From assembly GCA_949751835.1 (NCBI GenBank), contig CATKHK010000027.1:248001-312000 (forward strand): 64,000 bases of DNA, in the 5' to 3' direction. Source of the stretch: Blepharisma japonicum. Its lineage: Eukaryota > Ciliophora > Heterotrichea > Heterotrichida > Blepharismidae. This document shows positions 13,893-38,984 of the stretch, in pieces (position 1 is the stretch's first letter; every line of letters begins with the position of its first letter). The notes under the pieces are model-generated. The model worked only from the letters and a program-made list of their open reading frames with translations, searched no databases and had not been told where the DNA came from. Made by a program: the position numbers and the translations under genes.

Positions 13893-13915
13893 TACTGCTA
13901 TTTAATCCAATAATA

Positions 13916-16900
13916 ATGGTTAAAAAGGTGATTTGTAAACTTGATGGGAATGACGGCAGCTTTCCTCAGCCTTCTAAGTCAAGCTTTATTTATCGAGTCG
14001 AGCCAGGGACGACTGTAAGCTTTCAAGTTGAAGCCGGGTCAGTTGTAAACACAGAGAACACGGTTCTTATACTTGATATTCACCGAGGAACGCATCCAGA
14101 AATTCAAGCAACTCCAGGCTCTTTAAGTCCTCTAGGTCATTGGATTTGTGATGTCACTTTTTCAACTCCAGGCAACTATAATATCTTCATAGAGTACACA
14201 GACAAAGTCTCAAAGGAAAAAATCCAAGGATCAGTAAATTATCTCATTGTCGACCCAGAGATCAAAATTGGAGGAAAAGTGATACCCATCAATGGAATTT
14301 GCATGCAAAGTGTCTTGTCGCGCTCTCTTGGACCTATAAATAGATGGTTTGAGGTATTGAAACACCAGAATGGGCTGGGATATAATTTATTTCACTTGAC
14401 GCCTATACAGGAGCTAGGACCATCACAAAGCTTGTATAGCATTAATGACCCTAATAAATTAAATCCAGAGCTGTTCCCGGGGCTTGAAACTGTAAATATT
14501 ATATAGGAAGAGGCAAAAATTCAGGTTTTGCAAAATGTTTTGGGACAGCTAGAAAATGAAGGAGTAGGGTGTATTCAAGATGTCGTGCTTAATCACTCAG
14601 CTGATGGCTGCCAATTTTTAGAGGAGCACCCTAATGCGACTTATAACTTGAAAAACTGCCCATATCTGACTGTAGCTTATGAGCTGGATAAAGCTTTGTG
14701 TGAATTTTCTACATCTTTATGGAAAAGATGTGTGAAAAACTACGGAAACCGCAATAGGATAGAAAATGAAAGAGATCTAAGCAATATTATAAGAATTTTA
14801 AGAGTTGAACTGCTACCTTCATTGAGGCTACAAGAGTATTTCCAAATTAATACAGAAAAGGCTTACCAAGATTTTCTAAATAATGAGACCCATAAGACAC
14901 TAGATATTAACTTAGCTCAAGAATTGCTCTCCAAAGGAACCGAATACTTTATGAAGAAATATGCAGTAGCTGGTGAAGGAGAAGGAAGATTTTTAACTAC
15001 AATTAACGGCGAACTTGTTTGGAGAGCTTTCAACACACTCAAAATGAACAGAGACACCATCTTATCTGAAGCCAGAAAGCTGATTAACGGAATAAATTCA
15101 TACTTATTAGGAAGATATGAAAGACACCAAGGAGAAATCATAAGCAACATAGAAGGAGATATAAGATACCATAAGATTGAACAAAATAACGTAGAAATAA
15201 CCCCTGCAAATCCGCTTGTGAAGCCTTATTTTTACCAGCTTAGAAGTGGAGATGTAGCATTGTTTAATGGATTTATTATTGGCTATAACGAAGTATTAAA
15301 AGATTTCGCTGATAAAGAAGGCTGGCAATATTTCAGAAGAAATGTAGTCATTTGGAGTGACTGCATTAAGCTAAGATATGGAAGCTCTCGATATGACTGC
15401 CCTGAGCTTTGGGATAGAATGGAAAACTATGTCACAAATGTAGCCAAAATTTTCAAAGGAATTCGTCTTGATAACGCGCACTCAACTCCTCTTCATGTCT
15501 CTGAATATTTACTATCTAAAGCTCGTTTGGCTAATCCTAATCTTTTTGTAATAGCAGAACTGTTTACAAGTGACCAAAACACAGACTCTTTATTTGTCAG
15601 AAGATTAGGAATTAATTGTCTTATACGTGAAGCTATGATGGCTAATAACCCAAGGACGCTGGGGAGGCTTGTTTATGAGTTCGGAAATGGAGAAATTGCA
15701 TCTCTAGGGAGTCTTGAAGAAACTGATCTTAACAACAGCAGCTTACTTGGGATACACCCTGAATCAGGAGCAACCAAACTTATTGCATGGCCTGTTCCTG
15801 CAATTTTTTATGACTGCACACATGATAACGAAACTCCAGCACAAAAAAGAACAGCTCAGGACGCATTGCCAAATGCTGCAATGGTCGCTTTATGCAACTG
15901 TGCTATTTCTTCTACAAGAGGATACGATGAATTAATTCCTAAACAGCTATCAGTAGTTACTGAAAGAAGACTTTATAAATTGCCAGTTATTGAAGAACAA
16001 AAAGTAAATGAAATTAAAGTACTTGAAGGAGAAAATGAAGAATATATAAAAGTCTTTGTAGAGTATACAAGAGGAGAGCCGGCCAGAGAAATCTTTATTA
16101 AAGGAGAATGGGATGGATGGGCAAAACCTATACATTTAGAAAAATCTGGAGAAAATAATATGTGGAAATCGGCTTTATTGTTCCCAAAATCATATGCTGG
16201 GAGAGAATTTAATTATAAGTATATAGTTGATGGAGTGTGGCTACATGATCCAAAATTCAGATTTTCAGGCACTGGAGCTTATACTAATAATATTCTATCA
16301 GTAAATCCTCAAGTAATCAGCCCAGGAAATTCAGAAAATCTCTGCCCTGCTAAAAAATATCTTAATTATCTCCATACCTTTTTAGCCGAAAATGGCTATA
16401 ATGAATTGTATGTCCATCAATGTACAGAAGATATGGCAATGGTTATTAGACAAAACCCTAAAACGCTTGAAAGCTATGTCTTGGTTGCTAGGTCTGCTCA
16501 TTATAACTCCAACGATGCGATTTCTTTTAATGGGCTAAAATTGCCAGGATTATTAGACAGGGTTGAGTTTATAGCCACTTTGGCTATGAAAAGTACCAGA
16601 TTTGAAGAGCATCACGATCTTGTCAACGGGCTAGCTGGTAACTTAGAATTTACCACAAATTTAGCCCAATTTTGCAACGTTTCCAGAGACAACAGTGAAA
16701 ATGTTGATGTGCTGAATTTCTTTAGAATCCCACAAGCTTTCATAGCCATTGTGAAGACAAAACTCAATGCAGAAACCTTAGAAGGGATTGAAAAAGGATA
16801 CGAATTTTTAGCAAGCTTCCACAATTGCAGAGAAATTTTTGAAGGATTAAGCTTACAGCAGGTAAATCATATACTTTGGAGATGCAGCCAAGAGGAGCTT

Positions 16901-18682
16901 GATGCTTCTGGAGGAAAAAGAGATGTGTATGGGATACCTGGGTATAAAGCATTTAATTATGCAGGATTAGGTGGACTTATTGCCGAGTTTCTGCCGCTTA
17001 CGATTGGAAATAAACTTGGGCATGAAATATTCAATAACTTGAGACAAGGAAGCTGACTTATTGATTACAATGTGGCTAGGCTGCAGCAATATGAAATACC
17101 TGCTAGGCTTCAACAATTCGTTCATGATCATTTTGGCAAAATCAAATCTTTGCCAAGAGGAGTGATCCCTAAGCATTTTGTAAAGACAGTATTCTTATTA
17201 TTCAGGAACATAAAGCTTTATGTCCTAAGAGACTTATTCAAGGGAAGCAAACTTTTCAATGACTCAGATGATAGTTTAGTGGATTACTTAGGAGTTGCAG
17301 TATCACAGTTTTGGGGAAGAGTCCCAAGTGCAATATCTCACATAGGAGCAGACTCGCTTTCAGCAGGTCTTCCACACTTTTCTGTAGGCTTTATGAGATG
17401 CTGGGGTAGAGATACTTTTATTTCTCTAAGAGGATTATTATTATGCACAGGCATGTGGCAAGAAGCAAGAGAAACCATTATCACATATGCATCTGTCATG
17501 CAAAATGGCTTAATTCCAAACTTGCTAGACTCTGGAAATAACTCGCGCTATAATGCAAGAGATGCAACTTGGTTTTTCATGCAAGCCATTCAAGATTATA
17601 TTAAAATGTCTCCTGAAGGCGCTGCTATTTTGCAAGAAATGGTAAAACTTCGCTTCAAAAATGGTGAAATTGACCATTCAGATACCCCACCAATTCACCT
17701 TGCAGAAATAGTTCAAACAATTTTGCAAGCCCATGCAAGAGGAATTGAATTTAGAGAAAGAAATGCTGGAATAAGAATAGATGCACACATGCGTGATGAA
17801 GGCTTCAACATAAAGATAACATTTGATCCTCAGACAGGATTTATTTATGGAGGAAATAGGTCGAACTGTGGAACCTGGATGGATAAAATGGGAAGCTCTC
17901 CTAAAGCAGGCAACAAAGGAGTCCCTGCGACACCCAGAGATGGGGCCTCAATTGAAATTATTGGACTTTTGTACTCCAGCGTAGACTTTTTCGCTAAATT
18001 ATTCGAAGAAGGAAAATTCCCGTACCAAGGTGTGACCCTCTCAGACCATACACATTTAAGCTACAATGAGTGGAAAACTAGAATTGAGCAGTCTTTTGAA
18101 AATTATTTCTTTATCCCAGAAAATGGGGATTCTCCACATGTAAACAGGAAGCATTTAGGAATTCCTGGAATTTATAAAGACACACTAAGAAGCTCGAATG
18201 ATTATACTGACTATCAGCTAAGACCAAACCAATGCATTGCAATGGCAGTTGCCTCAAAACTTTTCAATCCAGAGCATGCAGCTTTTGCACTCAGCCAAAT
18301 AACAAAATATTTAATGCCAGGGGTTGGGAAAGGACAAGTTGGAATAAGGACTTTGAATGAGGAAGATAGGGATTATAGGGCATTTTATGATAATTCTAAT
18401 GACTCAAATGATTATTCTATCGCACAAGGGTTTAGCTATCATAATGGACCTGAATGGGTCTGGCCTGTTGGGTATTACTTAAGAGCGCTGTTAGCATTTG
18501 ACCCATCTAAAGTAGATTTTGTAATGAAATGTCTTAAGGAGCATAGAACTTACATAGAAAACTCAGCTTGGATGTCAATCTGTGAGCTGACAGATAAAGG
18601 TGGAAAAGAAAACAAATTTTCAAGCATGGCTCAAGCTTGGAGTGTGTCGACACTTATTGAAGTCCTTTATGAATTACGCTAA
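13916..18682 (+). CDS. Glycogen debranching enzyme (AGL/GDE type) with internal CBM48-like module
   Basis: This bifunctional eukaryotic-type enzyme combines 4-alpha-glucanotransferase and amylo-1,6-glucosidase, 1583 aa, made of two exons split by a 15-nt intron at 14492-14506 (phase 0). In order: an N-terminal beta-sandwich; the transferase domain with DVVLNHSADG, RLDNAHSTPLHV, VIAELFT and HDNETP; an unexpected CBM48/AMPK-beta-like module at about 700-795; then the GH133 glucosidase domain with MRCWGRDTFISLRG, NARDATWFF and YGGNRSNCGTWMDK. Trp in RQGSWLIDYNV is TGA (17054-17056), where the animal enzyme also has Trp. Cytosolic glycogen or starch-like reserve breakdown is inferred. The CBM48 insertion is not a feature I know from animal or yeast enzymes. 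Confidence 0.95.
14492..14506 (+). other. 15-nt spliceosomal intron in the debranching enzyme gene
   Basis: The sequence gtaaatattatatag has GT...AG ends and A at position 10. Removal joins ELFPGLET to EEAKIQVLQNV in frame (phase 0) and restores a continuous debranching enzyme. Retention would insert an in-frame TAG. Confidence 0.93.
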
Positions 18683-19012
18683 TTTAACCATAAGCTTATT
18701 TAATTTATAATTATCTATTTACTAATTTGTGTATTTTAATACACAATTATCAAGAAAACTCAGAAAGAAATAATATCATCATAAAATATTTACTTTAAGT
18801 ATTTACCTAAATATAAACTAATTTCCATTCAAGTCAAATATTTTCACCTATTTGTTCTGTTAGGTTGTCTAAAAGTTCCATTTACAATATTAAACTTTTT
18901 ATCAATAAAAATTATTCACCACATCCAAGTAATTTGTATAATACTTTGCTTTATCTCTACATAATTTCCAACATTCTAATATTCCTGATCACTTTTTATA
19001 TCAATAAAATTA
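18683..19012. other. Intergenic region, AT-rich
   Basis: This is 330 bp between the debranching enzyme stop and the aconitase start on the same strand. I see nothing beyond AT-rich sequence; the 3' part must contain the aconitase promoter and leader. Confidence 0.4.
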
Positions 19013-21682
19013 ATGGAAGGAAACAATCCATTCAACTCTCGCTGCCTTCAAGAGCTTCAAGCTAATGGTCAAACTTACAAGTATTACAGTCTCCCATCTC
19101 TCAATGACGCTCGTTTAGACAAACTCCCATACTCCATAAGAATTCTCCTTGAAAGTGCAATCCGCAATTGTGATGAATTCTCGATCAAGTCTTCTGACGT
19201 CGAAAACATCTTGAACTGGGCAACTACAAGTCAAATGGACATTGAAATTCCTTTCAAGCCTGCACGTGTTGTTTTGCAAGACTTCACTGGAGTCCCAGCT
19301 GTTGTTGACCTTGCTGCTATGCGTGATGCAATGCTGCGAATGGGAAATGACCCACAGAAAATCAATCCTCTGTGTCCTGCTGATCTCGTAATTGACCACT
19401 CAATCCAAGCTGATATAGCAAGATCTCCAGATGCTCTAAGAATGAACGAAGAAATCGAGTTCAACAGAAACAAAGAACGCTTTGAGTTCTTAAAATGGGG
19501 ACAAAATGCTTTCCAGAACTTTTTGATTGTCCCACCTGGCTCAGGAATTGTCCATCAAGTCAACTTGGAATATCTTGCAAGAATTATTTTTAATTCTAAT
19601 GGATATTTGTACCCAGACTCAGTTGTCGGAACAGATAGCCATACCACTATGATTAATGGAGCTGGAGTTGTAGGCTGGGGTGTTGGAGGAATTGAAGCAG
19701 AAGCAGTCATGCTCGGCCAAGTAATTTCAATGGTTTTACCACAAGTTATAGGATTTAGACTAACTGGAACTCTCCCACAAACAGCAACTGCAACAGATTT
19801 AGTCTTGACAGCAACTAAGATGCTCAGACAAAGAGGAGTTGTAGGAAAATTCGTAGAATTCTTCGGACCTGGTGTTGAAGGCTTATCCATTGCAGACAGA
19901 GCCACAATAGCTAATATGTCCCCTGAATATGGTGCAACTATGGGATATTTCCCTATGGACCACAAGACTTTGGATTATTTAAGATCATCTGGAAGAACTG
20001 ATGAACAGATTGCATATATTGAAGCTTATTTAAGAGCTCAAGGCTTATTTAGAGATTTCAATGGTCCTGATCCTGAGTTTTCAGGCGCAGTTTTAGAGCT
20101 CGACTTAAGCACAGTTGTGCCTTGTGTTGCTGGACCTAAAAGACCACATGATAGAGTCCCAGTCTCAGACTTAAAGAACGATTTTTTGACTGGACTTACA
20201 GGACCAGTGAATTTCAAAGGATTCGGAGTTCCAAATCCAGATGCAGCAGTCAACTTTGACTATCATGGCCAGCAGACCACCATTAAGCACGGCTCAGTTG
20301 TGATTGCAGCCATCACTTCATGCACAAACACTTCAAATCCTGATGTTATGCTTGCTGCTGGCTTATTAGCTAGAAATGCAGTTGCCAAAGGATTAACAGT
20401 TTCCCCTCATATCAAGACTACTTTGTCACCAGGCTCAGGAGTTGTTACTAGATATTTAGAGCTTGCAGGCGTTTTACCACATTTAACTCAGCTTGGTTTT
20501 GCTTTGGCAGGCTATGGCTGTATGACTTGTATTGGAAACAGTGGAGATCTTGATGAAAGCGTCCAAAAAGCAATTCAATCAGAAGATTTAGTAGCTGCAG
20601 CTGTTTTATCAGGCAACAGAAACTTTGAAGGCAGAGTAAATCCATTCACTAGAGCCAACTATTTAGCTTCTCCTCCTCTTGTGGTCGCTTACGCTTTGGC
20701 AGGAAGAGTTGACATTGATTTTGAGACTGAACCTTTAGGCACTTTTGAAGGTGCCCCTGTGTTCTTGCGTGACGTCTGGCCGACCCGTGATGCTATTGCT
20801 CAAACAGTCTCAGAAGTAATTAAACCAGAAATGTACAGAGAAGTTTATACAAGAATTGCCCAAGGCACCCCATCATGGAATTCTTTACAAGTATCAGAAG
20901 GGTTTTTATATGAGTGGAAAGAAGAGTCCACTTATATCCACAATCCACCTTTCTTCCTTGGCCTAACTGCAGATGTTCCAGCAATCAGAGATATCACTGA
21001 TGCATATGTCCTTCTTAAGCTTGGAGACTCAATTACAACTGACCATATTTCTCCAGCAGGAAACATTTCTAAGAACTCCCCAGCTGCAAGATATTTGACA
21101 TCTAGAGGAGTCCAGCCTAAAGACTTCAACTCATATGGTTCCAGAAGAGGAAATGATGAAGTCATGGCAAGAGGAACTTTTGCTAATATCAGACTTATCA
21201 ATCAACTTGTTCAGAATCCAGGCCCTCAGACGGTACATTTCCCAACTGGTGAGACTATTGATATTTTCGATGCAAGCCAAAGGTATCAACACGATGGACA
21301 ACAGCTCATTGTGATTGCTGGAAAAGAATACGGCTCAGGGTCTTCTAGAGATTGGGCTGCTAAAGGACCATTCCTATTAGGAATTAAAGCAGTCATTGCA
21401 GAAAGCTATGAAAGAATCCATAGATCTAACTTAATTGGCATGGGAATTTTACCACTGCAGTTCAAGCAAGGAGAAAATGCAGCAACTTATGGGTTGACTG
21501 GAACTGAGAGATATACAATTGCACTTGGAGGACAAGTTAAAGTAAACCAAATGATTGAAGTAACTACAAGTGATGGAAATAGATTTGAAGTCATGACAAG
21601 AATTGATACTGATGTAGAAGTGGAGTATTTCAGACATAACGGCATTCTGAATTACGTCTTAAGAAAGCTTAATAAAGCATAA
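19013..21682 (+). CDS. ACO1: Aconitate hydratase, cytosolic/IRP1 type
   Basis: This is an 889-aa aconitase that interconverts citrate and isocitrate through a [4Fe-4S] cluster. The three cluster ligands are Cys437 (TSCTNTSNP) and Cys503 and Cys506 ([12 protein letters not shown]), the same residue numbers as in human IRP1/ACO1, which is also 889 aa. Other family blocks are [43 protein letters not shown] and [17 protein letters not shown]. There is no clear mitochondrial presequence, so a cytosolic location is more likely. Whether it also binds iron-responsive RNA elements cannot be told from sequence. All Trp codons are TGG, unlike the TGA-rich neighbours, and GC content is visibly higher, as expected for strongly expressed metabolic genes. 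Confidence 0.97.
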
Positions 21683-22718
21683 AAACATTTTATCATATTG
21701 TGCTGTAATAGGAAATAATTAAAAATTAAATATGAATTAATTACTGATCAACTAATTTTACATAAATCATAAAGATATGATAATTTTAAAATAATAAGAA
21801 AATTATAGAAAACAGAAAACCAAAAATCAATTTTAAAATTAATGCATGAAAAATATTATGCACGTATAAACACTTATAAAATTTTCTGATTTGTGAGCAA
21901 AAATAAAAAAATTGTCTCTTGAAGCTCTTTCTGCTGCTTGAAATAATAACGAAAATTAAGAAGAATTTGCAGTGACCCAAGTTCATAGAATAATATAAAA
22001 ATTGAGAATTTCATTAGATATATCGGGATGATAGTTTTGATTTCATCCTCAAAAAAATCTATTTTGTGTATATAATTAGCAGCAAAAGCATAACTAGGAT
22101 ACAAATTTATAGCAACATTCCATTTATGCTCTATTACTCGTCACTATTATTTGGATAATCAAGAATTGCACATCAAAGGCGACAATTGAATCATAATACT
22201 TTAAATTCAGAATCAAACAATTTTTAAAAAAAATTCTAGAGATTGCGAGGCTAATTTAAGGTTTTCTTATGCTAAATCTTTAATCATGGTATCATAATTT
22301 TAATCAGTGTAAATACCTACAAATTTTTATTGTGTATAATTCTTCTATAATTTTAGATAAAATATAGGGTTGCTAATTCATTGGTTTCTCAAAAGTCTAT
22401 GTCAGTAAGCTTAAGCAAGGCTCTATTATATGAATACTTTATTTTCTGATGTAAAATTCAGTCATATAATTTGATAGCTGGCTAATTAAAATTGATAATC
22501 CCAACTTATTGTGCTTATTAAATTTTCCATTGCCTAATTATTTTCAAGCCCTATTATCCTATGAATTATAAGGATAAAAATAGCTATTTTCACTCTAAAC
22601 TTTGGATCTTAACTTTATCATATACTAAGAACCACTTTAAGTAAATACTTTGCTAATCAACATTTATTATTGGTACTTCTTTTTGAAAGTTAAAATTTCA
22701 GTATTAAAAAATTATAAA
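21683..22718. other. Intergenic region, AT-rich, about 1 kb
   Basis: I find no supported gene. On the minus strand, 21874-22143 is open for about 90 codons with one TGA, but it has no ATG near its start and its peptide is hydrophobic and composition-driven. It is treated as chance. The right end is the upstream region of the orphan gene at 22719. Confidence 0.4.
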
Positions 22719-23492
22719 ATGTTGCCATCTATGGATCAAGTGATAGCCAAAACTATTCCACCATTTTGGAGCAACCCAAGTCGGAAATCCAGGCATGAAT
22801 CTTACGTGCTTTCGCTATTTTACAACCCCAAAAGTCCTATTTTCAAGCCACCGAAAAAAGAATACTTGCGCTGCAAATTAATCAGAGGCCACAAGCGTAT
22901 TCTTAGGCAGATAAAAAAGTGTATAATACCAGCAAAAACACTGAATAGAATTGACCCCTCCAACCTCAGTGCACTTCGTCAGTATGAAGAACTCAGAAAT
23001 TGCTATTACAGAAATGCAGAAGTGCTAGATCCATTGATTGAGACCATAAATGGACCAATTACTGACGGGAAGGCAAAACGCAAGCCAACTTCGTACGAGG
23101 ACATTGAAAATAGTTTTAACATGTCTTTCTGCAGGTCTTACTTCGCTCCAAACTCTATACGAGAATCCTACTTTTTGTATGTTGAGCTAATCTTTATGGA
23201 GCTTGACGCTGAAATTCTATGCGATAAATTTGATTTTTACTGCTGCAGAGAAAAGAATCATTCCGGTGAGTGCATTGAAAAGTGACTTCTCATGAAAAAT
23301 ATTATACAATTCGATATGATCAGAGAACTGGATCATGAACCTTTTGTTTCTTCAGGCATCATTCTCCCCAGCTATGGCTTAGATAAGCTCAGAGAAGCAC
23401 GCTCTGAAATGATTAGCCAAGTTAATATGCAAGAAGAAGGTGAGAAGAAAGAAAATCGTGACTTGGAGACCTTAAATAGCCAACTATGTTAA
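22719..23492 (+). CDS. Orphan protein, basic N-terminus, Cys-containing centre
   Basis: This 257-aa protein has no recognised family. The N-terminal half is basic (KLIRGHKRILRQIKKC), the middle is aromatic-rich with a CDKFDFYCCREKNHSGEC cluster of Cys and His, and the C-terminus is acidic and Gln/Glu-rich. The internal TGA at 23283-23285 reads as Trp and joins the frame to its real TAA stop. ATG at 22719 (MLPSMDQ) is preferred over the in-frame ATG at 22650, because the extra 23 residues look like translated AT-rich leader. The Cys/His cluster could bind metal, but the spacing does not match a zinc-finger class I know. A lineage-specific gene is likely. Confidence 0.7.
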
Positions 23493-23974
23493 TAAGTAAA
23501 TAGGATGTTAATATGATGTAAAAATTATTCAGAAATCCATTCCAAAAAAGAAAAAAAGAATATTTTGTAAAAAAAGTTTTTGAACTATCAGTGAGTTCAC
23601 ACGCTCGATGGAAATTAGTTATTATATTTGAGCTGATTAATTCGCAGTGCTAAAATCCTAAAAAAACAATTATTTTTAAAGTTGATTATTGTCATTTTTT
23701 ATAAAAATATTTAAAATTAATTCTTAAGTTTACAGTTTTATATACTTTAAATAAAAGAGAATTGCCTGTTGATCAATGAGTCAAAATGTTTTTTCACAAA
23801 AATATTCAAAAGATTGACTTTGAATTTAAATATTAATTCTCAAAGAACTCAGAGACAAGGGTTTGCTTGATGTTTAAATATAATCAATATAAAAGTGTTG
23901 AAATATGTTATATAATAACTTAAGAATAATTTATACATATTAAAAAAAATTTGAGGTTTAATATATTTTATACA
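23493..23974. other. Intergenic region, AT-rich (convergent genes)
   Basis: This lies between the 3' ends of two convergent genes. I see only AT-rich sequence with A and T runs, and no RNA gene or repeat. Confidence 0.4.
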
Positions 23975-26674
23975 TTACTGGGAAAAATCTTTAAACGACC
24001 TATTTCCTAGCTCAAATGAATGTTGCTTCATTTCATGATGAATAGGCCTTTTTTTATTAGCATTCGTCTTCGGGTTTGATGAAAGCTTATGCTCTCTGAC
24101 GGTGTCTTTAGCAACTTTGAAAATAAGCTTTCCATTAGTATATTGATGAGAACTATCATGAATAGAAGTTATTATAAAGCCCCTATCCTTTGGAAACTTC
24201 AATCCCATTGAATCACATCTGTTTCTGAAATTCTGTTCTGCGTTGTATATTGTTTTAATCAAAGGAAAATTCATTTGGTAGTCTTCTTTATGGTCTTGAG
24301 GAATTTTTATATGTGCTTCCTGTGTTGCATAGGGCTTACGAATACTTATTGGAGCTCTTACATAGTTAGGCATAGGTACTGATTTTTTTCTGATAAAAGG
24401 CTTAGTGCTCGGTAAGGAATAGCTTTCATTTAGGGGATCAATTTTTTGGCTTTCGTTAAAACTTGCTTGCATAATATTAGCAGACGGCGGCCTTTGAAAG
24501 GTATTATTCATTAATTGATTAGACTGTCTTTTTTGGAGATGCTTGGATTTTGATCTCTCGAACGCGTTTTTATGCTCAATTTTCAAAACTTTATACTCAA
24601 TTTTTTTATCATCATTATCTGATGAATCTGAGTCAGATTCCGAGATTTCAATGTCTTGATCTTCTTCATGAGCTATTTGCTCATTATATATAACACCAAC
24701 TTCATTTAGCAATTCTTTTATTTCTATATTTTCTGTATTTTCTTCATCATAATTATCTTCAATAACAAGAGTATTTATTTCTTCAGTTAAGCAAACATCT
24801 GAAATGTTTCCAAACTCTGATTTGTTTTCTACTCTATCAAAAGAACTATAAATCTCCCTTATATCTGTCTTAGACTTAACAAATTTAAATTGCCCATAAA
24901 GAAAATTGCAAAGCTCTTGCAATTTTTTACGAAAAAGACTTGGACAAAAAAAAATCATGAGCTGCTTGCATAAATCTTTTCCAATAGTTTCTAGGTTTTC
25001 TTGTGATATATGAGATTCTTCAATTACATTCTTTTTAGATGGACCAAAAAAGGAAGACTCTAGCGTAAAACTATTCATAATCCCAAACTCTCTGAAAAAC
25101 ACTATTCTTGAGGTCTTTTCTTTGTATTTTTCCATTCTGAAGCGTGAATTCTTATAAGAAATTAGTCCATTTCTCTTTGCTAATAAAAAAGGAAATAATT
25201 TAATAAATAAATTATTTCTAGTGTCATATAAATCGCCAATAGACTTACAAGCATATATAAATATATCTTTTTTGGTTGAATGGCCATGCATATCGCAATG
25301 TAAAACGATTTCTCTTTCTTCTGATAGCATTTGGACAATTTTTTTTGAATAATAAATAGTCGGGTGCATATATTTATTAGGATTTATCCATCGTCTATTT
25401 AAATCTACTCCAAGAAGACTGCATCTATAATTTCCATATATAACACCATCAGGATTTAGCATAGGAATTATTTTGAAAATATATTTTCTCCTTAAATTTA
25501 TTGCTTCCTTTGAATTTCCTAATAAAAATTCAATTGCCCCTTTCATCATATATGAGGAATTTGATTCTCCTGGATGAACCCGTGCAGTTAAAACTACTCC
25601 TTTTTTATTCTTATGCTCATTTGTATTTTTACTATCATCATTTTTTGTTTTACTTTTATATTTTTCGATAAGTTTTATATTGGCTTGCTGCCTTAGAATT
25701 CTCTGCCTTAAAAGCTTTCTTGCTGCAGCACTTTTTTGAAGGTTTTTATATTCTTGTTCTCATGGTGTATACGTGCTGATATTTTCTGTTATAGTTAAAA
25801 CTGGGCAAATATTTCCTGCAAGAGTCCTGCATAGTGGATTAACTCTCAAATATTGATTTGTATTAAGATTCGAAGAATAGGAAGATAGGTCATCCATTAG
25901 CTGAGTATAATTATAAGGAAAACTATAAGCAAAATATACTAAATCATTTTCATATTTAAATGTGTAGGTAAATGTCAATGTAAAATAATAGCGAATTTTA
26001 CTTTTTTCATATGATGGTCTTTGGATATTATTTTGAAAATAACTTATCATAGTCCCATCTCTAAATCACTCTTTTCCAGTCAATTCATATTCTTTTTTTG
26101 AAAAAATCAGCGGTTTCATTCCATCATTGAATAAAGACTTTCGCTTCATTAAATTGACGATATTAAACCTTACTTTGTGGTTTGCTTTATAGGTTTCTAC
26201 AGAAAAATAAAATCATTGTGTGTGCCCTTGTGTTTCCATGTCGAATTCTAATTGTAAATCATATAAATCTTCACTGTGTTTTATTGCTTTTCTTAAATTT
26301 CCACTTTCGAATTTTGAATTAAATTTTAAGGTGTTTTCGGCTGGAATTACAATTGTATACTCCTGAGGAAGCTGCTTAAAGGGAGTGTAACTTTTCATGC
26401 CCAAAAACTGTTGGTAGTCTGATTAATGAATACCATAATCATGTGATAAAGCAATTTCATTACGAATTTCGAGAGGAATTTCTTTTTTGGGGATTTGGTT
26501 GTGTAAATTTGAATCTTCATCGTAAACTCGTGCCCGAGAGTCGTATACAATGATACCATCCATTTCGTAGCGGTATAGATTTGATTGGCCTGCGTCTTCT
26601 TTCGATCTCATGAATGCTCAAAAGTCATCATTTGAGTTTTGAGCATTATTACTTGAGTTAATAGAAGATTCCAT
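23975..26674 (-). CDS. Cytosolic carboxypeptidase (M14D, CCP/AGBL family)
   Basis: This 894-aa metallocarboxypeptidase is of the class that trims polyglutamate from tubulin tails and other proteins. One 15-nt intron (26419-26433) is removed. The CCP N-domain is complete: ESGNLRKAI, GHTQWFYF, LFNDGMKPL and KEWFRDG. The catalytic domain has ARVHPGES (zinc His and Glu), MLNPDGVIYGNYRC, VDLNRRW, LHCDMHGHS (third zinc His) and FTLESSFFG (catalytic Glu). Four Trp are TGA, including QWFYF and KEWF, positions conserved as Trp in CCPs. The C-terminal 300 residues are an acidic, Ser-rich, probably disordered tail. A role in ciliary microtubule deglutamylation is inferred from the family. It starts at ATG 26672-26674. 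Confidence 0.93.
26419..26433 (-). other. 15-nt spliceosomal intron in the CCP gene
   Basis: Read on the minus strand it is GTATTCATTAATCAG, phase 1, with A at position 10. Removal joins LSHDY to DYQQFLGMKSY in frame. Retention gives an in-frame TAA. Confidence 0.88.
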
Positions 26675-26930
26675 AAAAATATTTTAAATTAATATAAAAA
26701 AATATAGGTTTTGTAAAAGTACATAAAAGCTATAGATATTAAAACATCAGTCCGATATAGTTTTTACCTAATAATTTTCCTGCACAGATTAAGTATTATT
26801 TGATTTATTTTTGTTACACACAATATGTTAATCACTCGTTTTTTTGGTTTTTATTTGAATAGAATATTTTGAATAAATAAAAATTATACGATTAAAATCA
26901 AAATTCATTAGTTACTTAAATTTGACTATA

Positions 26931-28376
26931 ATGGATGAGTCAAGCCATTCTTGCAAGCTATCTCCAAAATGCGTTTTGGTATTTATGACTGCAATAAGCA
27001 TAGTCATCTACATTGATCGTGGCGCTTTATCAGCTATCATTCCAATACTCCAAGAAGACTCAACATTAAATCTTAATCCAATTGAAGCGGGCTCATTAGG
27101 CTCTTTATTTATGCTTGGCTATATGGTAACTTGCCCAATATTTGCCCATGAAGCTCAATTCATTCATCCTTTATACTTGATGGCTATTGGACTTGTTATA
27201 TGATCAATTGCTGTATTATCAATTTCTATGATAAGCTCATTCTGGCCTTTAGCAATTGCAAGAGCATTTACAGGGATTGGAGAAGCATCATTTATCTCTT
27301 TATCTCCGCCTTATATTATGGAAGTAGCTCCAGAACAGCACAAAAGTATGTGACTTGCTATATTTTTTGCATCAATGCCTATAGGATATGCAATAGGATT
27401 TGTATATGGAAATTCCACATACGAACTATTCAATGCTTGGTATGCACCTTTTGCTATTGAAGGTATTGCAATTATTCCTCTAATTATTATTTCACTGCTT
27501 GCTTATAAAGATCCCAGTATGCTTGCAAGGAAGCAAATAGGAGAAAGCAGTGAATATGCAACACTGACAATATGTCAACAATTTGAAAAATTGGCCAAAA
27601 ATCCTATATTTATTTGCTTGTCACTTGGATATGGAGCTTATGCATTTACAGTAGGAGGCATTTCTTATTGGGTGAGCTTTATGTAGGGTCCTGATTTTCT
27701 GCAAAAATATTTTAATTTAACTGCAAACTCTTCAACATTGTGACTAGGAGGAATCACTATTTTTTGTGGACTAGTTGCAACTATACATGGCTCTTGAATT
27801 TTAGACAAAAGGCTGGTAAAAGAAAATAAGCTTTTTCACGATGGCCTGGCTACCGAAGAAGAAATCGAAAATACAAGGACTAGAGAAGCTACACTTATTC
27901 TTCTCGTTTCTATGACTATAGGGACGATAATCGGGGTAATTGGTTCACTTACTGATGATTTTTATCCCTTTATTATTTGTTTAGGAATTGCGGAATATAT
28001 GATATTTTTGTAAAACTAATTTAGGGGTCATGGACCAATTGGAATTGCGTTGATGACTTGTGTTTCAAAAGAAATGAGAGGACAGTCTAATGCGATTTCT
28101 ATATTTATTACACATTTAGTGGGAGATTTTCCTTCTCCTTTTTTAATTGGGGTATGATTTGAAACAATTGGATTATATTGGGGAATGTTTTGTGTTACAG
28201 CTTGACTGAGCTGATCATCTCTTTTTATGGGATTAGCGTGAAATTTTGCTGTAATATACATGTAGAGGTATCAAGGGCAGAGTGTATTTTTTGTATTGTC
28301 TCATCTATTTAAACGTAGTAAAGAAGGCTTGAAAAATAGTGCTAGAGAAGTGAAATTTGAAAAATTTCAAAATTAA
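26931..28376 (+). CDS. MFS transporter, Spinster-like
   Basis: This 471-aa, 12-helix major facilitator protein is assembled from three exons with 15-nt introns at 27672-27686 and 28010-28024. It opens MDESSHS, and the first helix ends in the MFS signature VIYIDRGALSAIIP, followed by SLGSLFMLGYMV and ARAFTGIGEASFISLSPPYI. Late in the protein come SKEMRGQSNAISIFITHLVGD and PSPFLIGVW. These match the Spinster (lysosomal lipid or lysophospholipid exporter) group, so an endomembrane location is plausible; the substrate is unknown. At least eight Trp codons are TGA, one of the highest densities in the window. It starts 256 bp from the divergent CCP gene. An in-frame ATG slightly upstream was not found. 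Confidence 0.88.
27672..27686 (+). other. 15-nt spliceosomal intron 1 in the MFS gene
   Basis: The sequence gtgagctttatgtag is phase 0, with A at position 10. Removal joins GISYW to GPDFLQKYF. Retention places an in-frame TAG in the message. Confidence 0.9.
28010..28024 (+). other. 15-nt spliceosomal intron 2 in the MFS gene
   Basis: The sequence gtaaaactaatttag is phase 2, with A at position 10. Removal joins AEYMIFL to GHGPIGIALM. Retention gives TTG-TAA, an immediate stop. Confidence 0.88.
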
Positions 28377-28729
28377 AAATTATCTAATAATTTAAATTAA
28401 TAGTAGTAATTAAAAATAGGATTGAAATTATACAAAAATAATTTAAAAATAAATTTTTTATTCAATCAAAAATTATGATTTTTCGTAATAATTCTTAAAG
28501 ATCTATTTTTGATTATTTTCTATCAAAAATTAATGATTTTTGTAATAATTTAACTAACCCATATCAGTTTCCTATTTAATTTTTTTAATAAAATTCTCAA
28601 CATATATAAACCTTTTTATCATCCTAAGGTTCTATTCTCATTTTCTTTGAACATTTTTAACCATACAGATAATCTTAAAACTAACTAAAAATGCAGCTTT
28701 TCACTTTATAAACCAAATAATAAGATTGA
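28377..28729. other. Intergenic region with short repeats
   Basis: This is 353 bp of AT-rich DNA between two plus-strand genes. It contains an imperfect direct repeat (28465-28493 and 28522-28550) and a 9-bp inverted repeat. Otherwise nothing is recognised. Confidence 0.45.
28465..28550. repeat. Imperfect 29-nt direct repeat plus 9-bp inverted repeat
   Basis: Copy 1 at 28465-28493 and copy 2 at 28522-28550 both read atcaaaaatta-tgattttt-gtaataatt with a few differences. Between them, atttttgat (28505-28513) and atcaaaaat (28522-28530) form a perfect 9-bp stem with an 8-nt loop. It lies 3' of the MFS gene and 5' of the kinase gene. AT-rich composition makes chance a real alternative. Confidence 0.5.
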
Positions 28730-30460: not shown

Positions 30461-30742
30461 ATTAAAATATTTTAATATGTAATCGTAAAGTATTGGTATC
30501 TGAGCACTTTTATTAGTAAAATATGTGATTATTAAACGATAATTTTTGTCCTATATAAAATAAATTACCATTATGTTTTATTTTATAATAGTTTGAACTA
30601 ATATTGATAATCATATATAATATAATTAGTAATAATTAATAGGCATGGACTCAAATTTTATTAGCAAAATATGTTATAGTTAAATACTTATTCTCTCCTT
30701 GGAGAAATTTGTTAAAATTTTACAAAGTTGAATAATTAAAAT

Positions 30743-31423: not shown

Positions 31424-31989
31424 TTAAATATTTTTTGAACAATATCCTAGGTAGAAAGGAGATAATTGTGATATTTTTCATCCAAAGAATAAATAATTGT
31501 CTGGCATAATTAGGTATATCCTGTTAACATAGGATAATAAATAATAACTTAGATTAATTATCAAATACTTATATTTAAAATAATTATAGAATCTATGCAG
31601 TTATATAATTTTATTTTAATGTTTTAAATAGTCTGCTTATAATAAAGATTAATTCTGTAGGCAAAAATAATCATATAAATATGAAATAAATATTAACAGC
31701 AAAATCCCAATAATTACGGCTAAAATATAAATAGAAAATTGCAAATTAAATGTGTTTATTCTCTACGCACTTAATATAAGTTGAGTCTATGCTAATAATT
31801 GATAGATTCAAACTCAATTCTTATAAAATCGTATGAAACCCAGAATATTGTCTTTCAGAAAAATCAGCTACAATTCTGAAAATTGAAAAAAATTAAAAAA
31901 TGAAAATACAATAAATCCAAGTTTCTCTTCTCATAGCACAATAAATTAATAGTCAAATATCTTATAAAAGTTAAAACTAAATTATTATT
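31424..31989. other. Intergenic region, AT-rich (convergent genes)
   Basis: This lies between the 3' ends of the GST gene and the first CDPK gene. I see nothing but AT-rich sequence. Confidence 0.4.
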
Positions 31990-33450
31990 CTAGATATGAT
32001 TTCTTGGTATTTTCCCCTCAATCACATTTTCAAATTCTTCAAAATCAATCTCCCCATCACCATTAGTATCAAGTTCTGATAAAATATCCCTCCAGATATT
32101 ATCCAGCACACGCCCGTCTTCTACAATTGCATCTTTCAGCTCCTTTTTAGTAATCGTTCCATTTTTATCTTTATCAAACAAGGCGAAAGCAGCCTTAAGA
32201 TTGCTAACTGACATAAGTCTTCTTTGGTCCATAGTTGCCTTCAAAAATTCTGTATAATCAATAAATCCACTTTTATCAGAATCAACCTCTTTCATAATTT
32301 TTTTAACTTCTTCTTTAGCTTCTTCTTGGCCCATAAACTTTATATATTGATCCAATAGCTCCGATTTGCTTAATTTTCCATCTCCATTCTTGTCGATTGA
32401 TCTGAAAACTTCTTTAAGGCCTTTCGTGTCATCATTAGAAATGCACTGTAAGGTTATAAATGTACTTAATGCATCTCTGAGCTTTCCTCTACTTTGAAAA
32501 CCCCTTAAATTGTCAAGAGCTGGCTCTAATGATTGAGCATTTTGAATTTCTGGACAGACTCTTTGGATCCATGGGTGCGCTAAGGCTTGTTTTGCATTCA
32601 GCCTTGTTTCCATTGGGCTCAATAGTGCTGAAATTAAATCTTTTGCGTGTCTAGAAATGTCAGCCCAGATTGGCTCTCTAAATGACCAATCTCTTTTAGA
32701 AATTTTCTGAAAGAGTTCTTCTTGGTTTCTTGCTTGAAAGGGAGGATGCCCAGAAAGCATCATATAAATAATTACACCACAGCTTCATAAATCACACTTG
32801 GAATCGTATTTTCCTGAAATAACTTCTGGAGCCATAAAATAGGCAGTTCCGATGACTTCATTAAGTTTTTTAAACCTTCTTGACACTTTTGCGATTCCGA
32901 AGTCAGAAACCTTGATATTATTAATATCTCCTCTATTTTCTAGAAGGATATTCTGTGGCTTTAGGTCCCTATGGATCACATTATGCTCATGCAAATAGTC
33001 GACAGCTGAAAACAATTGCTTTGAAACTGAAGCTGCATCATCTTCTGAAAATTGGTGCCTTTTGATGATTTCGTCAAATAGCTCTCCTCCTTTGCATAAC
33101 TCCATCACAATATAAGCTTTTTTCGGGGAATCGAAATATTCAAAAATTCGGACAATGTTAGGATGATCAATTGACTTCATCACATTTACTTCGTTTAAAA
33201 GTTCAGCTTCTGAAATAGCGTTGGTGTTTTCTTTAGTAAGAATCTTCACTGCACGTTGCATGTGAGAATCTCTATGAGTAGCTTCTCTAACTTCTCCATA
33301 ACCACCCTGACCCAAAGACCTCCCAACTTCATAGACTTCAATAAATTTAAGTGTATTCGCAGTTACAAAAAGACCAGGCTCAATGTCAAAATCATCCTTA
33401 CCAGAATGCTTTTTGCGAAAATTTGCTTGCTTTCCAAAACAACAACCCAT
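31990..33450 (-). CDS. Calcium-dependent protein kinase (CDPK), copy 1
   Basis: This 486-aa CDPK has an N-terminal Ser/Thr kinase, a junction autoinhibitory segment and four EF-hands. The N-terminus MGCCFGKQ is suited to myristoylation and palmitoylation. Kinase motifs are GQGGYGEVREA, HRDLKPQNILL, SDFGIAKV and GTAYFMAPEV. All four EF loops are canonical: DKNGDGKLSKSE, DSDKSGFIDYTE, DKDKNGTITKKE and DTNGDGEIDFEE. Trp after SKCDL is TGA. It ends in TAG, one of only two TAG stops in the window. It is the last of three tandem CDPK genes, 79 bp downstream of copy 2. Direct Ca2+ activation at membranes is expected from the family. Confidence 0.96.
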
Positions 33451-33529
33451 GATTTATTTGAAAATTCCATGGTTATACTAGCAAAATAATATGATTTATA
33501 TTTATAGATTATTGACCATAATTTTAAAA

Positions 33530-34972
33530 TTATAGCTTGCTCATCACTAAGGCCTCGAATTCTTTAATGTCAATTTCGCCATTGCCGTTCGAATCAACTT
33601 CTCTTAAAATCTCGTTCCAAACATCATCTGGTGTACTTTTCCCATGGCAAAGAATATTCCTAAGCTCACTCGCATTAATTGTCCCACTTTTATCTGTATC
33701 GAATATGTTGAATGCAGCTCTTAAGTTTTCCTTTGAAATAAGCATTTGACTATTGAATGTAGCCTTAATGAATTCATTATAATCGATATAACCACTTTTA
33801 TCAGTGTCTACTTCTTTCATAATTCGTTTTACCTCACTTTTCGCTTCATCCTCCCCCATCATTTCTATATATTTCGCCATCAGTTCTTTTTTGCTTAATT
33901 TTCCATCTCCGTTGGAGTCAATTGAAACAAAAACTTGTCTTAATTCTTTAGTTTCTTCTGATGTAGCCATCTGTGAGGTGAGGAATGAGGTTATAGCGTC
34001 TTTTAACTTGTTTTTTCTATGGAAAGTTTGCAAACTTGAAAAGGCGCCTCTCATTGCATTTGGATCCTGAGGTACTGCTGACCTCCTAGTTATCCAAGGG
34101 TGCTCCAAACAGTCTTTTGCTGATAAACGAAATTTAGCAGGACAAATGAGTTCTGAAATTAAATCTTTGGCTTCAGAAGAGATATGAGACCAGTATTGGT
34201 CTTCAAATTTTAGCTCGCATTTCGTAATTTCAGCAAAAATTTCTTCGTTTGTATTTCCATCAAAAGGTGGGCGGCCAGCTAGCAAAACATAAAGAATAAC
34301 TCCACAGCTTCATATGTCGCATTTTAAATCATATTCCCCTGCTACTACTTCAGGGGCTAAAAATAAGGCAGTGCCAATAACTTCTTTAGATTTATGCTTT
34401 GATAGTGTAGCGGTCCCGAAATCAGAAACTTTTATACTTGTTATATCGCCTTTGGTCTCCAAAAGCATATTTTGCGGTTTCAGATCTCTGTGAGCTATAT
34501 TTTTATCATGTAAATATTTGACTGCAGAAAATAACTGTTTCATTATACAAGCTGCATCTTCTTCGCTAAAAATTGATCTCCTTAACAATTCTTCAAATAA
34601 TTCTCCTCCTTTGCAAAGCTCCATAACCAAATATGATTTTCTTGGAGTGTCAAAATATTCGTAGATTTTTACTATGTGAGGATGGTCAATTATCTTCATC
34701 ATATTGACTTCGTTCAAAAATTCTTTTGTTTGAGCTTGAGAGTCTAAGTCTTTGGGTAAGATTTTTACTGCTCGCTGGGCATTCGTTATTTTGTGTGTAA
34801 CCACCCTGACTTCGCCAAATGATCCCTTACCGAGGGAAGCACCAAAATCATAAACATCCACAAACTTCATGTTATTCTGTTTAATAAAAATACTTGGCTC
34901 TGAATGGAGATTATTGTGGCTTTGATTGTGGAGAACTGAAGGTTTCTTTGCTTTCGATGAAACGCAACCCAT
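33530..34972 (-). CDS. Calcium-dependent protein kinase (CDPK), copy 2
   Basis: This 480-aa paralogue shares the layout of its neighbours: MGCVSSKAKK acylation start, kinase with GKGSFGEVRVV, AHRDLKPQNMLL, SDFGTATLS and GTALFLAPEV, then a junction and four canonical EF loops (DSNGDGKLSKKE, DTDKSGYIDYNE, DTDKSGTINASE, DSNGNGEIDIKE). ATG at 34970-34972 is chosen over an in-frame ATG 54 bp upstream, because MGC gives the family-typical acylation site and the upstream 18 residues are hydrophobic leader-like sequence. Trp after KCDI is TGA. It is closest to copy 3 in the EF-hand part: both end ALVMSKL. Confidence 0.95.
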
Positions 34973-35176
34973 TTTTATTATACTGATAAAACCAAATAAG
35001 AAGACATAATTGAATTTTTCTGCCAAAAATCTTAACTATAAATAGACATACAGGATAAAATTATTATAAGTGATAATACTATATTAAAATAGTTATGGTT
35101 TTTGTCTTTATCTATTAAAAGACCCTCTTAATTAATTCTTCAAAAGTATTATTTAAATTATTTTGTATTTTATGCA

Positions 35177-36622
35177 TTATAATTTACTCATAACTAAGGC
35201 TTCAAATTCTTTAATATCAATTTCTCCATTTTGATTGCTATCAGCCTCGCCCAAAATTTCGCTCCAGACATTATCAGTAGTATCTAGACCTTCCCCAAGA
35301 ACAGACCTTAATTCACTAGCGCTTATTGATCCACTATTGTCTTTATCAAACACATTAAAAGCAGCTGCAAGATTTTCTCTAGAATTCATCAATCTTTTAT
35401 CTAGAGCAGCTTTAAGAAATTCATTATAATCAATAAAACCATTTTTATCAGTGTCGACTTCGTTCATGATCTTTTCTACTTCACTTTCTGTTCCAGATTC
35501 TTTCATTATGCTAAGGTACTTATCTCTTAATTCATCTTTGCTTATTCTTCCATCTCCATTTGTGTCTATAGAAATAAAGACTTCTTTTAGCTTACTGATT
35601 TCTTCTGCAGATGCAACCTGAGAAGCAATATACATTTGAATTGCACTTTTTAATTTACTTTTGCATTGATAAGCCTTTAAATTTATTAATACATTTTCAG
35701 TTCCTTCTGAATCGCCATATGGTCTGGATCTTTTAGCAATTCAAGGATGCTCTAAGCAGCCTTTTGCCGAAAGTCTTATTTTTTCAGGGCAAAGAAGTTT
35801 TGAAATTAAATCTTTTGCGTCTGCTGATATATATAATCATTGTGGTCCACTAAAAGTATAGTGTCCAGTTAAAATAGACTTAAAGATTTCATCATTTGAA
35901 TTTCCTGAAAATGGAAAATTGCCACTTAGTAGTAGATAAAGAATAACTCCACAGCTCCATAAGTCGCATTTCGAAGTATAATGTCCTTTAATTACTTCAG
36001 GTGCTAAAAATAGTGGAGTTCCAATTATTCCTGTGACATTACGAATATTTTCATAAATCATTGCAGTTCCAAAGTCTGAAATTTTTATGTGGTTTGTATT
36101 TCCCTTACTCTCTAATAAAATATTTTGTGGTTTTAAATCTCTATGTATAATTTTTCGACTATGCAAATAATTGACTGCTGAGAAAACTTGCCTCATAACT
36201 AGCACAGCATCGTATTCATGAAAATGGTTTCTTTCTAGAAGTTCATCAAGTAGCTCACCTCCTTTGCATAGTTCCATTACTAAATAGAACTTTTTTGGAC
36301 TTTCAAAATATTCGTAAATTTGAACGGTATTTGGATGACCAAGAATTTTCATCATTTTTACTTCATTTAAAAACTCTTTATTTTGGAAATCTCCTTCTTT
36401 AGGTATAATTTTGACAGCTCTTTCGATTTTAGTTCCTTTACGAGTTACAACTCTGACTTCACCATAAGCTCCATGTCCTAAAGTCTTGCCAAATTCATAA
36501 ACATCTTCAACAGCACTTCTATTTAATTGAACAAAGATTCCTTGTTCTGTAAAAATGTCCCGACTGCTTGTGATTTTTATACTAGCATTGACTTTATTTT
36601 TCGATGACGTGCAACAGCCCAT
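35177..36622 (-). CDS. Calcium-dependent protein kinase (CDPK), copy 3
   Basis: This 481-aa CDPK starts MGCCTSSKNK (acylation type). Kinase motifs are GHGAYGEVRVV, IHRDLKPQNILL, SDFGTAMI and GTPLFLAPEV. EF loops are DTNGDGRISKDE, DTDKNGFIDYNE, DKDNSGSISASE and DSNQNGEIDIKE. Two Trp are TGA, after FSGPQ and in EHPWIAKRS, whereas the Trp of KCDLWSCG is TGG here and TGA in the two other copies. The C-terminal EALVMSKL is shared with copy 2. It is the first gene of the tandem array, 204 bp upstream of copy 2. No intron is seen in any of the three. Confidence 0.95.
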
Positions 36623-37511
36623 AATATTTATTATTATTACTTGTTACATGAAAATTAAATTCCAAGAAAATTCAAATAAAATCTCAAAATTTATTTATTT
36701 AACTTTTCAAATTTTATATCAAGTTTGTTATTAAAACCTTACTCTCTTTAATTTGATTAATAGTGTAGGGTAGTAATAATCAATCTTATCTTAGTGAAAA
36801 ATATTTAATAATTTTTAAGAGTCAAATTTATGCGTTTCATTTTCAAATATTTTTCTTGATTTAAATTTTAAATTTAATTAAGATTATATAAGGTCATGCT
36901 TGTTTTCTGCAATTTAAGAGAATTATTTGCTAACATCAAAATTAAATTTTCATCAAAAATATATGCAAGTACCATCTCCCTATATGTAATTTTAATAATG
37001 ATGATGCAAAATAATTATTGATTACTATGAAATCTCAAACCAGAAGTAAATTATCATTTGCTCTGCTTGCATTTATTGCTTTATCTAATTTGTTTCCAAA
37101 TCTTCCATTTTTATATTACTATGAAATCTGATTAAGGCTCTTATAACGTAAATAAATTAATTTCTTTCTTTTAAGATTATCAAAACAATTAAATTGCTTT
37201 TTGCAGTAAAGAATCTATTGCTAACTTTTAAGAGTCTCTAATTGTATAATTATAATTGCAGAGTAATTTCTCTATGAATAAATTAATTATTCCATATTTT
37301 TGGGGATTTTATGGAAACTATTTATTTATTCTTTAAGAAATTTAATCTTAAAACAAAAATTAGATTTAAAAACCCATTATTTGCATCTTAGATCAAGATT
37401 GCAAACTTTTAAATATTTATCATTTTTAGTAAATTGAATAAAATACTTCTAACTGAGTAGATACTAATTAACTAAAGATTTATAATTTTATACATCCTTG
37501 AATATTAAAAA
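36623..37511. other. Intergenic region, AT-rich, with a 15-nt direct repeat
   Basis: This is 889 bp with no supported gene. The 15-mer attactatgaaatct occurs exactly at 37021-37035 and 37115-37129. A 39-codon frame (37027-37146, one TGA) includes both copies and would encode a short hydrophobic peptide; it is too short to support. The left part is upstream of CDPK copy 3. Confidence 0.4.
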
Positions 37512-38984
37512 TTATTGTTTTATTTGCAATAATGGCTTTCCACCTACAGAAGATTTTCTCTGCTGCATTTGCGGCGCTTTAAGTGAATCATTAGATTTTC
37601 TAACATCTCCAAATATATTTGGCTTATCAAGATTTAGCTTTGGCAAACTTTTATCTCTTTGGTTTTTTCCAGCAAAAAGAATTCTATTATTCGGTTTTGT
37701 TAGAGGATTTTGTTTAAACCCAGAGCTTTTTCTGTTATTGTTTAAAGTTTGCTCGATAGATGGAGTTCTTTTTTCCATGCTTACGATTCACAAATCTTTC
37801 AAAGATGCGATTTCATCTAGCTTTGTAGGTTCCTTATAAGATCCTTGCGATTTTTCTTCAGAAGTCTTTCAAAACTCATATTCTTCAGGAAGCATAGGTT
37901 TTGAATTAAATTTTTTTTCAATGTGCTGCTGAGAAGGTGTAGAAATTTGCGAGGAAATCCTATATAAAATTTACTCAATTCTGCTTGCAACTTCTAAACT
38001 TTCCGCTTTTTTCTCACGGAGCTGCTTTCTTAAATTTTCGAGTTCATGATTTTGCTTTTTAAATAGCATTTCATATTGCTTTAGCTTTAATTCGAGCTCT
38101 TTAATTTTTTGATCGTTGTGAGATTCTTCTGATATTGATTGCACAAGATCTTGTGAAGGAAATTCCACTTTTCATATCTCATTATCAGAAGCTGAAGATT
38201 CTGAAGGGGCAAGATTAGGCTTTTGTTTAGAGAATCTATTGCTCTGATGTTTTTTAGGTAAATTTTTCTTTTCGTTTAAATTTTTATCTTCAAAGACTGG
38301 CTGAACAATTTCTTGAATAATTTCTTTTCCAAATTCAGCTGTTTCAAACTCATTGAATTTTTGTTCTAAGTTTTCACCTTTCTTATGTTTATGATCATTC
38401 TCAGCTTTAGATTTCTCTTTATGCTTATGCTCAGATGGCCCTCTGGCATGTGATTTCTTTATTGGCTTATCTCTTATAGATTTTAGGTCTTGATTAAACT
38501 CTTTTTGTTCAAGTTCTCCCATTTCAGAGTCAAAATTAGTAGGATTGACTTCTTCAGTTACAGGAATTTCAATTTTTTCTTCGAGTTTTGACGAAGCTCT
38601 TGAATAAGATTTTTGTTGAGGTATTTGCTCGTTTTCATACACATTTTCTTCAGGGTTTTTATCTTCACCAAAATTTTCAGTTCCTTTTAATTCGCTGATT
38701 TCTTTTTCTAAATTCTGGAAAGCCTGTTTTTGAGGCTCTAAATTATTTGGGTTTTCGCTTTCGAAATTGCCGAATTCGTTAAAATTTTCGTCTTCTACAA
38801 TATCAACAAGATTCCCTCCAAGCTGCTCGATTAAGCCTTCATTAGCTAGTTCATCGCCTTTTTCTATTTCACTTTCTGTAAAGCCAGGCTGATTTTGAAA
38901 TTGATCTTCTGGAGGAATATCTTGTTGAAGATCTGCACTCAAAATATTTCCTTGCTCTGGATCAAAGTTTTCGGGTGTTTCCAT
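37512..38984 (-). CDS. Acidic low-complexity/coiled-coil protein, unknown function
   Basis: This 485-aa protein is formed by removing a 15-nt intron (37960-37974) and reading three TGA as Trp. Residues 1-270 are very rich in Glu, Asn and Gln, with a basic patch KHKHKKG-like in the middle. Residues 290-340 form a coiled coil (KIKELELKLKQYEMLFKKQN). The C-terminal 140 residues are basic and Ser/Pro/Asn-rich. No domain is recognised. The compositional halves suggest a scaffold or cytoskeleton-associated protein, but this is a guess. Without the intron the frame would stop at 37971. Confidence 0.78.
37960..37974 (-). other. 15-nt spliceosomal intron in the acidic coiled-coil gene
   Basis: Read on the minus strand it is GTAAATTTTATATAG, phase 2, with A at position 10. 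Removal joins LEVASRIE to ISSQISTPSQQHIEKK and opens a further 150 codons. Retention gives GAG-TAA. Confidence 0.85.

Follow-up and report, generated by a model that had tools for sequence, protein, structure and literature searches.

The question raised by this locus is whether five segments of 15 nucleotides (nt) that interrupt coding frames are spliceosomal introns, and what follows for their recognition and surveillance if they are, a length of 15 nt being too short to keep 5′ splice-site, branch-site and polypyrimidine contacts apart and lying near the lower limit for a spliceosome. The segments are found in the window, the whole stretch of 64,000 nt that was analysed (contig CATKHK010000027.1, positions 248,001 to 312,000). 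The reading preferred here, with a probability of about 94%, is that they are spliceosomal introns of the U2 type, in a heterotrich ciliate in which UGA encodes tryptophan, either Blepharisma or a close relative. Splicing at these sites is predicted from the positions of the segments, the repair of reading frames, the consensus, alignments of paralogues and homologues, and small nuclear RNA (snRNA) genes. Introns of this class have already been described in Stentor and Blepharisma; what may be fresh here is a sixth candidate in the window, independent statistics in this genome, and a reading of intron phase.

Five putative 15-nt introns and their host genes

A preliminary description of the window located five GT...AG introns of 15 nt with A at position 10 (A10). 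All five 15-mers are present at those coordinates, are bounded by GT and AG on the coding strand in every case, and have A10 in every case, a chance of about 0.007 given a background A frequency of 0.37 (the window is 67% AT). Both 26419 and 37960 lie on the minus strand, which had gone unmentioned, and the other three on the plus strand.

14492..14506, plus strand: putative intron GTAAATATTATATAG, 15 nt, phase 0, A10; an in-frame TAG if retained
26419..26433, minus strand: putative intron GTATTCATTAATCAG, phase 1, A10, CAG end; if retained, intron positions 9-11 give TAA in frame
27672..27686, plus strand: putative intron GTGAGCTTTATGTAG, phase 0, A10; an in-frame TAG if retained
28010..28024, plus strand: putative intron GTAAAACTAATTTAG, phase 2, A10 within CTAAT; two copies of TAA in frame if retained
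37960..37974, minus strand: putative intron GTAAATTTTATATAG, phase 2, A10; an in-frame TAA if retained

Retention would thus place a stop in frame in all five (TAG in two, TAA in three), a stop being also a criterion of detection. Excision rejoins the coding frames of four genes:

13838..18682, plus strand: gene for a glycogen debranching enzyme, interrupted by the 14492 intron; 1609 amino acids from stop to stop once spliced
23975..26683, minus strand: gene for a cytosolic carboxypeptidase (M14), interrupted by the 26419 intron; 897 amino acids from stop to stop once spliced
26877..28265, plus strand: gene for a Spinster-like MFS transporter, containing two 15-nt introns; a third would extend its end to about 28376
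37512..39014, minus strand: gene for a charged protein with no Pfam match, interrupted by the 37960 intron; 495 amino acids from stop to stop once spliced

We take the charged protein, by eye, to be a coiled coil. Solved homologues align over three of the five joints (14492, 27672 and 28010): the alignment with a solved glycogen debranching enzyme crosses the first, with a one-residue gap beside the joint, and spinster homolog 1 (9boi) spans the other two ungapped. No homology was found across joint 26419, the main carboxypeptidase match starting downstream of it, or spanning joint 37960.

Frame-mending excisions in 344 kb

The sequence sampled amounts to 344 kb, made up of the window, 100 kb of C1, 100 kb of C5 and 80 kb of C27, the last fetched after the codon model was built. 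Excisions were sought that join two coding frames over an in-frame stop, with only the end dinucleotides and the codon model being used. GT-AG at 15 nt gave 52 frame-mending excisions, and 40 once 12 inside a longer open reading frame (ORF) were removed; A10 is present in five of the 12, one of which (C1 sample 12463) looks real. With the same filter, nine other dinucleotide pairs at 15 nt gave 2-8 matches each, the strand-reversed pair CT-AC at 15 nt gave 5, and GT-AG at 9, 12, 18, 21, 24, 27 and 30 nt gave 1-10 each.

Lengths that are not multiples of three were compared in the first 264 kb, unfiltered, under the rule that both frames must close. GT-AG gave 35 matches at 15 nt, 2 at 14 nt and 2 at 16 nt, with 3-10 for the 15-nt controls, and under a second setting 36, 5 and 1, respectively. 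This rule replaced a loose length scan, discarded because overlapping frames imitate joins at such lengths; a stricter earlier length scan had given 6 GT-AG matches at 15 nt and 0 in seven control pairs.

The 16-nt matches (2, or 1 under the second setting) are not above their controls (0-6, or 1-8). Three 16-nt candidates were nevertheless listed (C5 sample 23755-23770; C27 sample 53859-53874 and 57837-57852), two of them chosen by a profile that presumes A at position 11 and the third having A at both 10 and 11, and the argument that they anchor the A to the 3′ end was accordingly withdrawn. Three 14-nt candidates were rejected, two being inside another ORF and one having little downstream coding signal.

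The consensus and the adenine at position 10

In the alignment of the 40 joints A10 is present in 38 (p = 1.4e-14 against the background frequency), including 13 of the 14 joints in the later-fetched part of C27, and it is their most constant internal position. The A had been described as fixed; near-invariance is upheld, but the position is not absolute, one intron-like joint lacking A10. Columns 1-4 and 9-15 are conserved and columns 5-8 are looser. The consensus GTAANNTTTATNTAG occurs 784 times genome-wide, compared to 56 for its reversed form. The 38 A10 introns carry about 14.8 bits over background. To pick out that number of sites from 269 kb of coding sequence takes about 12.8 bits, so the information in the 15-mer could be almost enough by itself to define the introns; a score of at least 11 is reached by 37 of the 40 joints and by four stop-free 15-mers in open frames. 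Such near self-sufficiency would fit with the report that SR proteins were not detected in Stentor coeruleus (PMC9505925).

In the model that we propose, three splicing signals would abut with almost no spacer: GTAA, the 5′ splice site, at positions 1-4; TTAT, the branch site, around A10; and TAG, the 3′ splice site, at positions 13-15. The length would be fixed at 15 nt for that reason. A10, counted sixth from the 3′ end and followed by a tail of 5 nt, is most likely the branch nucleotide, given its near-invariance: bulged by U2, it would attack G1 to form a lariat with a loop of about 10 nt and the 5-nt tail, whereupon the exons would join. The contacts of U1 or U6 with the donor and those of U2 around the A would both have to be short.

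A different role for A10, such as protein binding, with branching elsewhere or without a fixed site in what would still be introns, is improbable. Such a role could account for a TTAT context that pairs poorly with the GUAGUA of U2 (T9, found in 32 of the 40 joints, would face a U in the register assumed) and for an intron-like joint with T10, and the 16-nt candidates, given how they were chosen and that the third has A10 and A11, cannot test where the A is anchored. It does not readily explain why A10 should be the most constant internal position, or why the A should move with length in Stentor coeruleus, where 92.81% of 8806 annotated introns are 15 nt and 7.19% are 16 nt, A10 being found in 8005 (90.9%) and the A of the 16-mers mostly at position 11 (442 of 633) (PMC9505925).

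Paralogues with and without the insert

A search of the same 344 kb with the spliced joints in translation found a relative elsewhere for 16 of the 40; for 15 of these 16, a relative has roughly five extra codons inserted at the joint. Paralogous inserts often differ in their letters (for example, GTATATGCTATATAG compared to GTATTTTTTATATAG, and GTAAATGCTAAATAG compared to GTAGTTTTTATATAG), GT...AG and A10 being retained while the remaining bases vary. Four inserts were found by paralogy alone, a search in which neither stops nor the A played a part; each is 15 nt long with GT-AG ends and A10, and three of the four contain an in-frame stop. Several more distant kinases, including those encoded by window ORFs 33530-35035 and 35177-36643, have no insert and align ungapped at the joint; other distant kinases are gapped there.

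This pattern makes it very unlikely that the 15-mers are coding insertions or sites of stop-codon readthrough rather than introns. A retained 15-mer would keep the frame as a coding insertion does, and a few intron-like 15-mers do sit within open frames; however, the in-frame stop in all five of the window, the retention of GT...AG and A10 amid otherwise varying letters, and the ungapped alignment of several insert-less paralogues are all contrary to that explanation. That they are unexcised germline segments (internal eliminated sequences) rather than RNA introns can be practically dismissed, given that the some forty thousand such segments of Blepharisma, about 70% of them intragenic, are reported to have a median of 255 bp (PMC9942856) compared to 15 nt here, and that the 15-mers are bounded by GT-AG on the coding strand, the strand-reversed CT-AC giving only 5 frame-mending excisions.

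Several observations weigh against reading the 15-mers as spliceosomal introns branched at A10. For the introns at 26419 and 37960 the support consists of frame repair and the consensus. Introns lacking an in-frame stop are under-sampled by stop-based detection. One joint without A10 (C27 sample 52147, which has T10) scores 12.6 without column 10 and is intron-like, whereas the other scores 4.9 and is not; an argument that both score low and are false had included column 10 in the score and was withdrawn. Conversely, the joint at C27 sample 37755 has A10 and is nevertheless probably false, with a score of just 0.9. No enrichment is seen for the textbook donor GTAAGT: GTAAGTNNNANNTAG, tried and rejected as a consensus, occurs 163 times compared to 152 reversed, and among the 40 joints G5 is found in 9 and T6 in 19, though U1 has the canonical ACUUACCU. 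Finally, one of the two alignments of the 70290/67947 kinase pair breaks up the gap at the insert.

Two gene families illustrate the distribution of these elements. Three adjoining protein-kinase-like ORFs on the minus strand of the window (31990-36643) are each one uninterrupted frame, and related kinases on C27 (sample 67578-70643) have three 15-nt introns or insert sites each. A family at C1 sample 66239-96442 (C1:266239-296442), presumably aspartic-protease-like as named by eye, has one common 15-nt intron position, and one decayed member has a 17-nt version of the intron (sample 68025-68041, minus strand). The 17-nt version was rejected as evidence for introns of that length, as the copy has decayed to a frame of 91 amino acids compared to 406; a paralogue has a 15-nt counterpart at 66416-66430.

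Genetic code, splicing components and related systems

UGA encodes tryptophan in this genome (45.2 Mb in 224 contigs): in three sampled stretches, frames of at least 300 amino acids cover 58-67% with TAA and TAG as stops, compared to 19-46% when TGA is added. TAG terminates 27 of 180 ORFs (coding score of at least 20, ORFs ending in a detected intron excluded), and the coding signal drops from +3.25 per 20 codons within ORFs to -2.51 past TAG, indicating that TAG is a real stop. The reassignment of UGA is a difference from Stentor, which is said to use the standard genetic code.

Genes for U1, U2 and U6 are present with intact motifs (ACUUACCU in U1, GUAGUA in U2 and ACAGAGA in U6), as is a match to SF1 above its cut-off, with SF1-HH and KH domains. 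Isy1, Cir_N (a domain that we take to be linked to Cwc25), UPF1 (two loci) and Upf2 also have matches above cut-off. For the U2AF large subunit there are three long matches of 95, the best at 249 bits, all below the cut-off of 310. U12 snRNA had no match in the genome, in a search without a working control (control genomes gave no match either).

Two further snRNA-like genes were noted. A third U2 gene (L003 1501-1693; C33:149801-149993) scores 130.8 bits compared to 161.2 and 156.9 for the others, and diverges in the loop of stem-loop I and in the 3′ half, with the same branch-binding GUAGUA. A second U1-like gene (L005 1501-1661; C17:419159-419319) scores 61.8 bits, below the family cut-off of 69.5.

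The attribution of the five introns to a class known from heterotrichs is borne out by UGA as tryptophan, by the length and A position of Stentor introns, by the length of Blepharisma introns, by the snRNA genes and by SF1. Length, GT-AG ends, A10, a T-rich branch region and canonical U1, U2 and U6 motifs are shared with Stentor, whose commonest intron, GUAAUUUUUAUAUAG, is also present here (C1:231905-231919, minus strand). Blepharisma stoltei is described as having predominantly 15- and 16-bp introns, UGA as tryptophan, and 41 Mb in 64 contigs at 66% AT (PMC9942806); length class, genetic code and AT content are shared with the present genome, which differs in assembly size and contig number and may therefore represent a different version, strain or species, and the code together with the intron class fits with Blepharisma. 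Loxodes magnus, of the sister group of heterotrichs, likewise has ultra-short introns, but of variable length (mode 17 nt, mean 19.3 nt) with multiples of three depleted, and the same source puts about 95% of heterotrich introns at 15 bp (PMC11441545).

Intron phase and in-frame stops

A retained intron leaves the frame unshifted, 15 being divisible by three. In Paramecium, Tetrahymena and others, introns whose length is a multiple of three are underrepresented and enriched for in-frame stops, which the source explains by nonsense-mediated decay (PMC5014332). Here almost all of the class has such a length, so phase would need to stand in for length. The consensus would usually supply a stop to retained copies, which could then be caught by translation-coupled mRNA decay. 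Domain matches to UPF1 and Upf2 are present in the genome.

The 40 joints are divided among phases 0, 1 and 2 as 27, 2 and 11. This split is not proof of selection for stops, because detection needed a stop, which disfavours phase 1. The 38 A10 introns, which had been detected by means of stops, number 26 in phase 0, 2 in phase 1 and 10 in phase 2; reading each of them in every frame gives a stop in 37 in phase 0, 30 in phase 2 and 7 in phase 1. Both detected phase-1 introns have an internal TAA.

Intron-like 15-mers without a stop were therefore sought inside 235 ORFs (269 kb) and compared with a codon shuffle. At a score of at least 11, phases 0, 1 and 2 have 3, 1 and 0 of them, compared to 1.7, 3.6 and 1.2 in the shuffle (4 compared to 6.5 in total). 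Over thresholds of 6 to 10 the totals range from 52 compared to 57 in the shuffle down to 10 compared to 11, with phase 0 exceeding the shuffle and phase 2 falling below it. A model without selection for stops, built on the counts of stop-bearing introns, predicts 14.4-20.3 stop-free matches at score 11, background included, of which 7.5-10 would be in phase 1; overall, the observed number has a P of 1e-5 to 1.3e-3, depending on the stop frequencies assumed. The apparent depletion is suggestive only, the phase-1 estimate being based on two introns. Stop-free introns seem to exist as exceptions: C27 sample 68283-68297 (GTAAAAAATAATCAG) is stop-free and located at the position of a paralogue's stop-bearing intron, C1 sample 35645-35659 is a stop-free 15-mer with a score of 16.3, and stop-free 15-mers in phase 0 show a small excess over the shuffle.

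One tentative interpretation, to which we would give somewhat less than even odds, is that the fixed length of 15 nt has moved the surveillance of splicing to the reading phase, introns persisting chiefly where their own consensus makes a stop. The consensus would supply TAG in phase 0 and the TAA of GTAA in phase 2, while phase 1 would be mostly stop-free and nearly empty. On this equally conjectural footing, the two stops remaining after UGA reassignment might be exactly those that the intron ends offer. A partial survey of the literature found no statement on phase or in-frame stops of heterotrich introns, which is a weak negative, and the available portion of the Stentor account (PMC9505925) is without discussion of either. 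If the link to phase is true, the fixed intron length would offer a clean way to ask whether intron positions are shaped by nonsense-mediated decay.

A sixth candidate in the window

When the window was scanned on both strands with a profile, six matches reached the threshold score of 11.5: four of the five introns (26419 scoring below the threshold), 23518-23532 and 28251-28265. The 15-mer at 23518-23532 on the plus strand (GTAAAAATTATTCAG, score 13.8) is intron-like and located directly past ORF 22641-23492, outside the called ORFs; no convincing gene model was found that would use it. The other match was missed by the preliminary description, whose five introns stand but whose list is probably incomplete:

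28251..28265, plus strand: candidate sixth intron GTAATATACATGTAG, phase 0, A10; third in the transporter gene

This 15-mer contains the TAG that otherwise terminates the Spinster-like transporter, which without the excision would end in a plausible final helix. No homology was found across the joint. Removal of the 15-mer adds a tail of 36 amino acids with a positive coding signal, the segment just upstream being slightly negative, and on these features of the sequence 28251-28265 is likely to be an intron.

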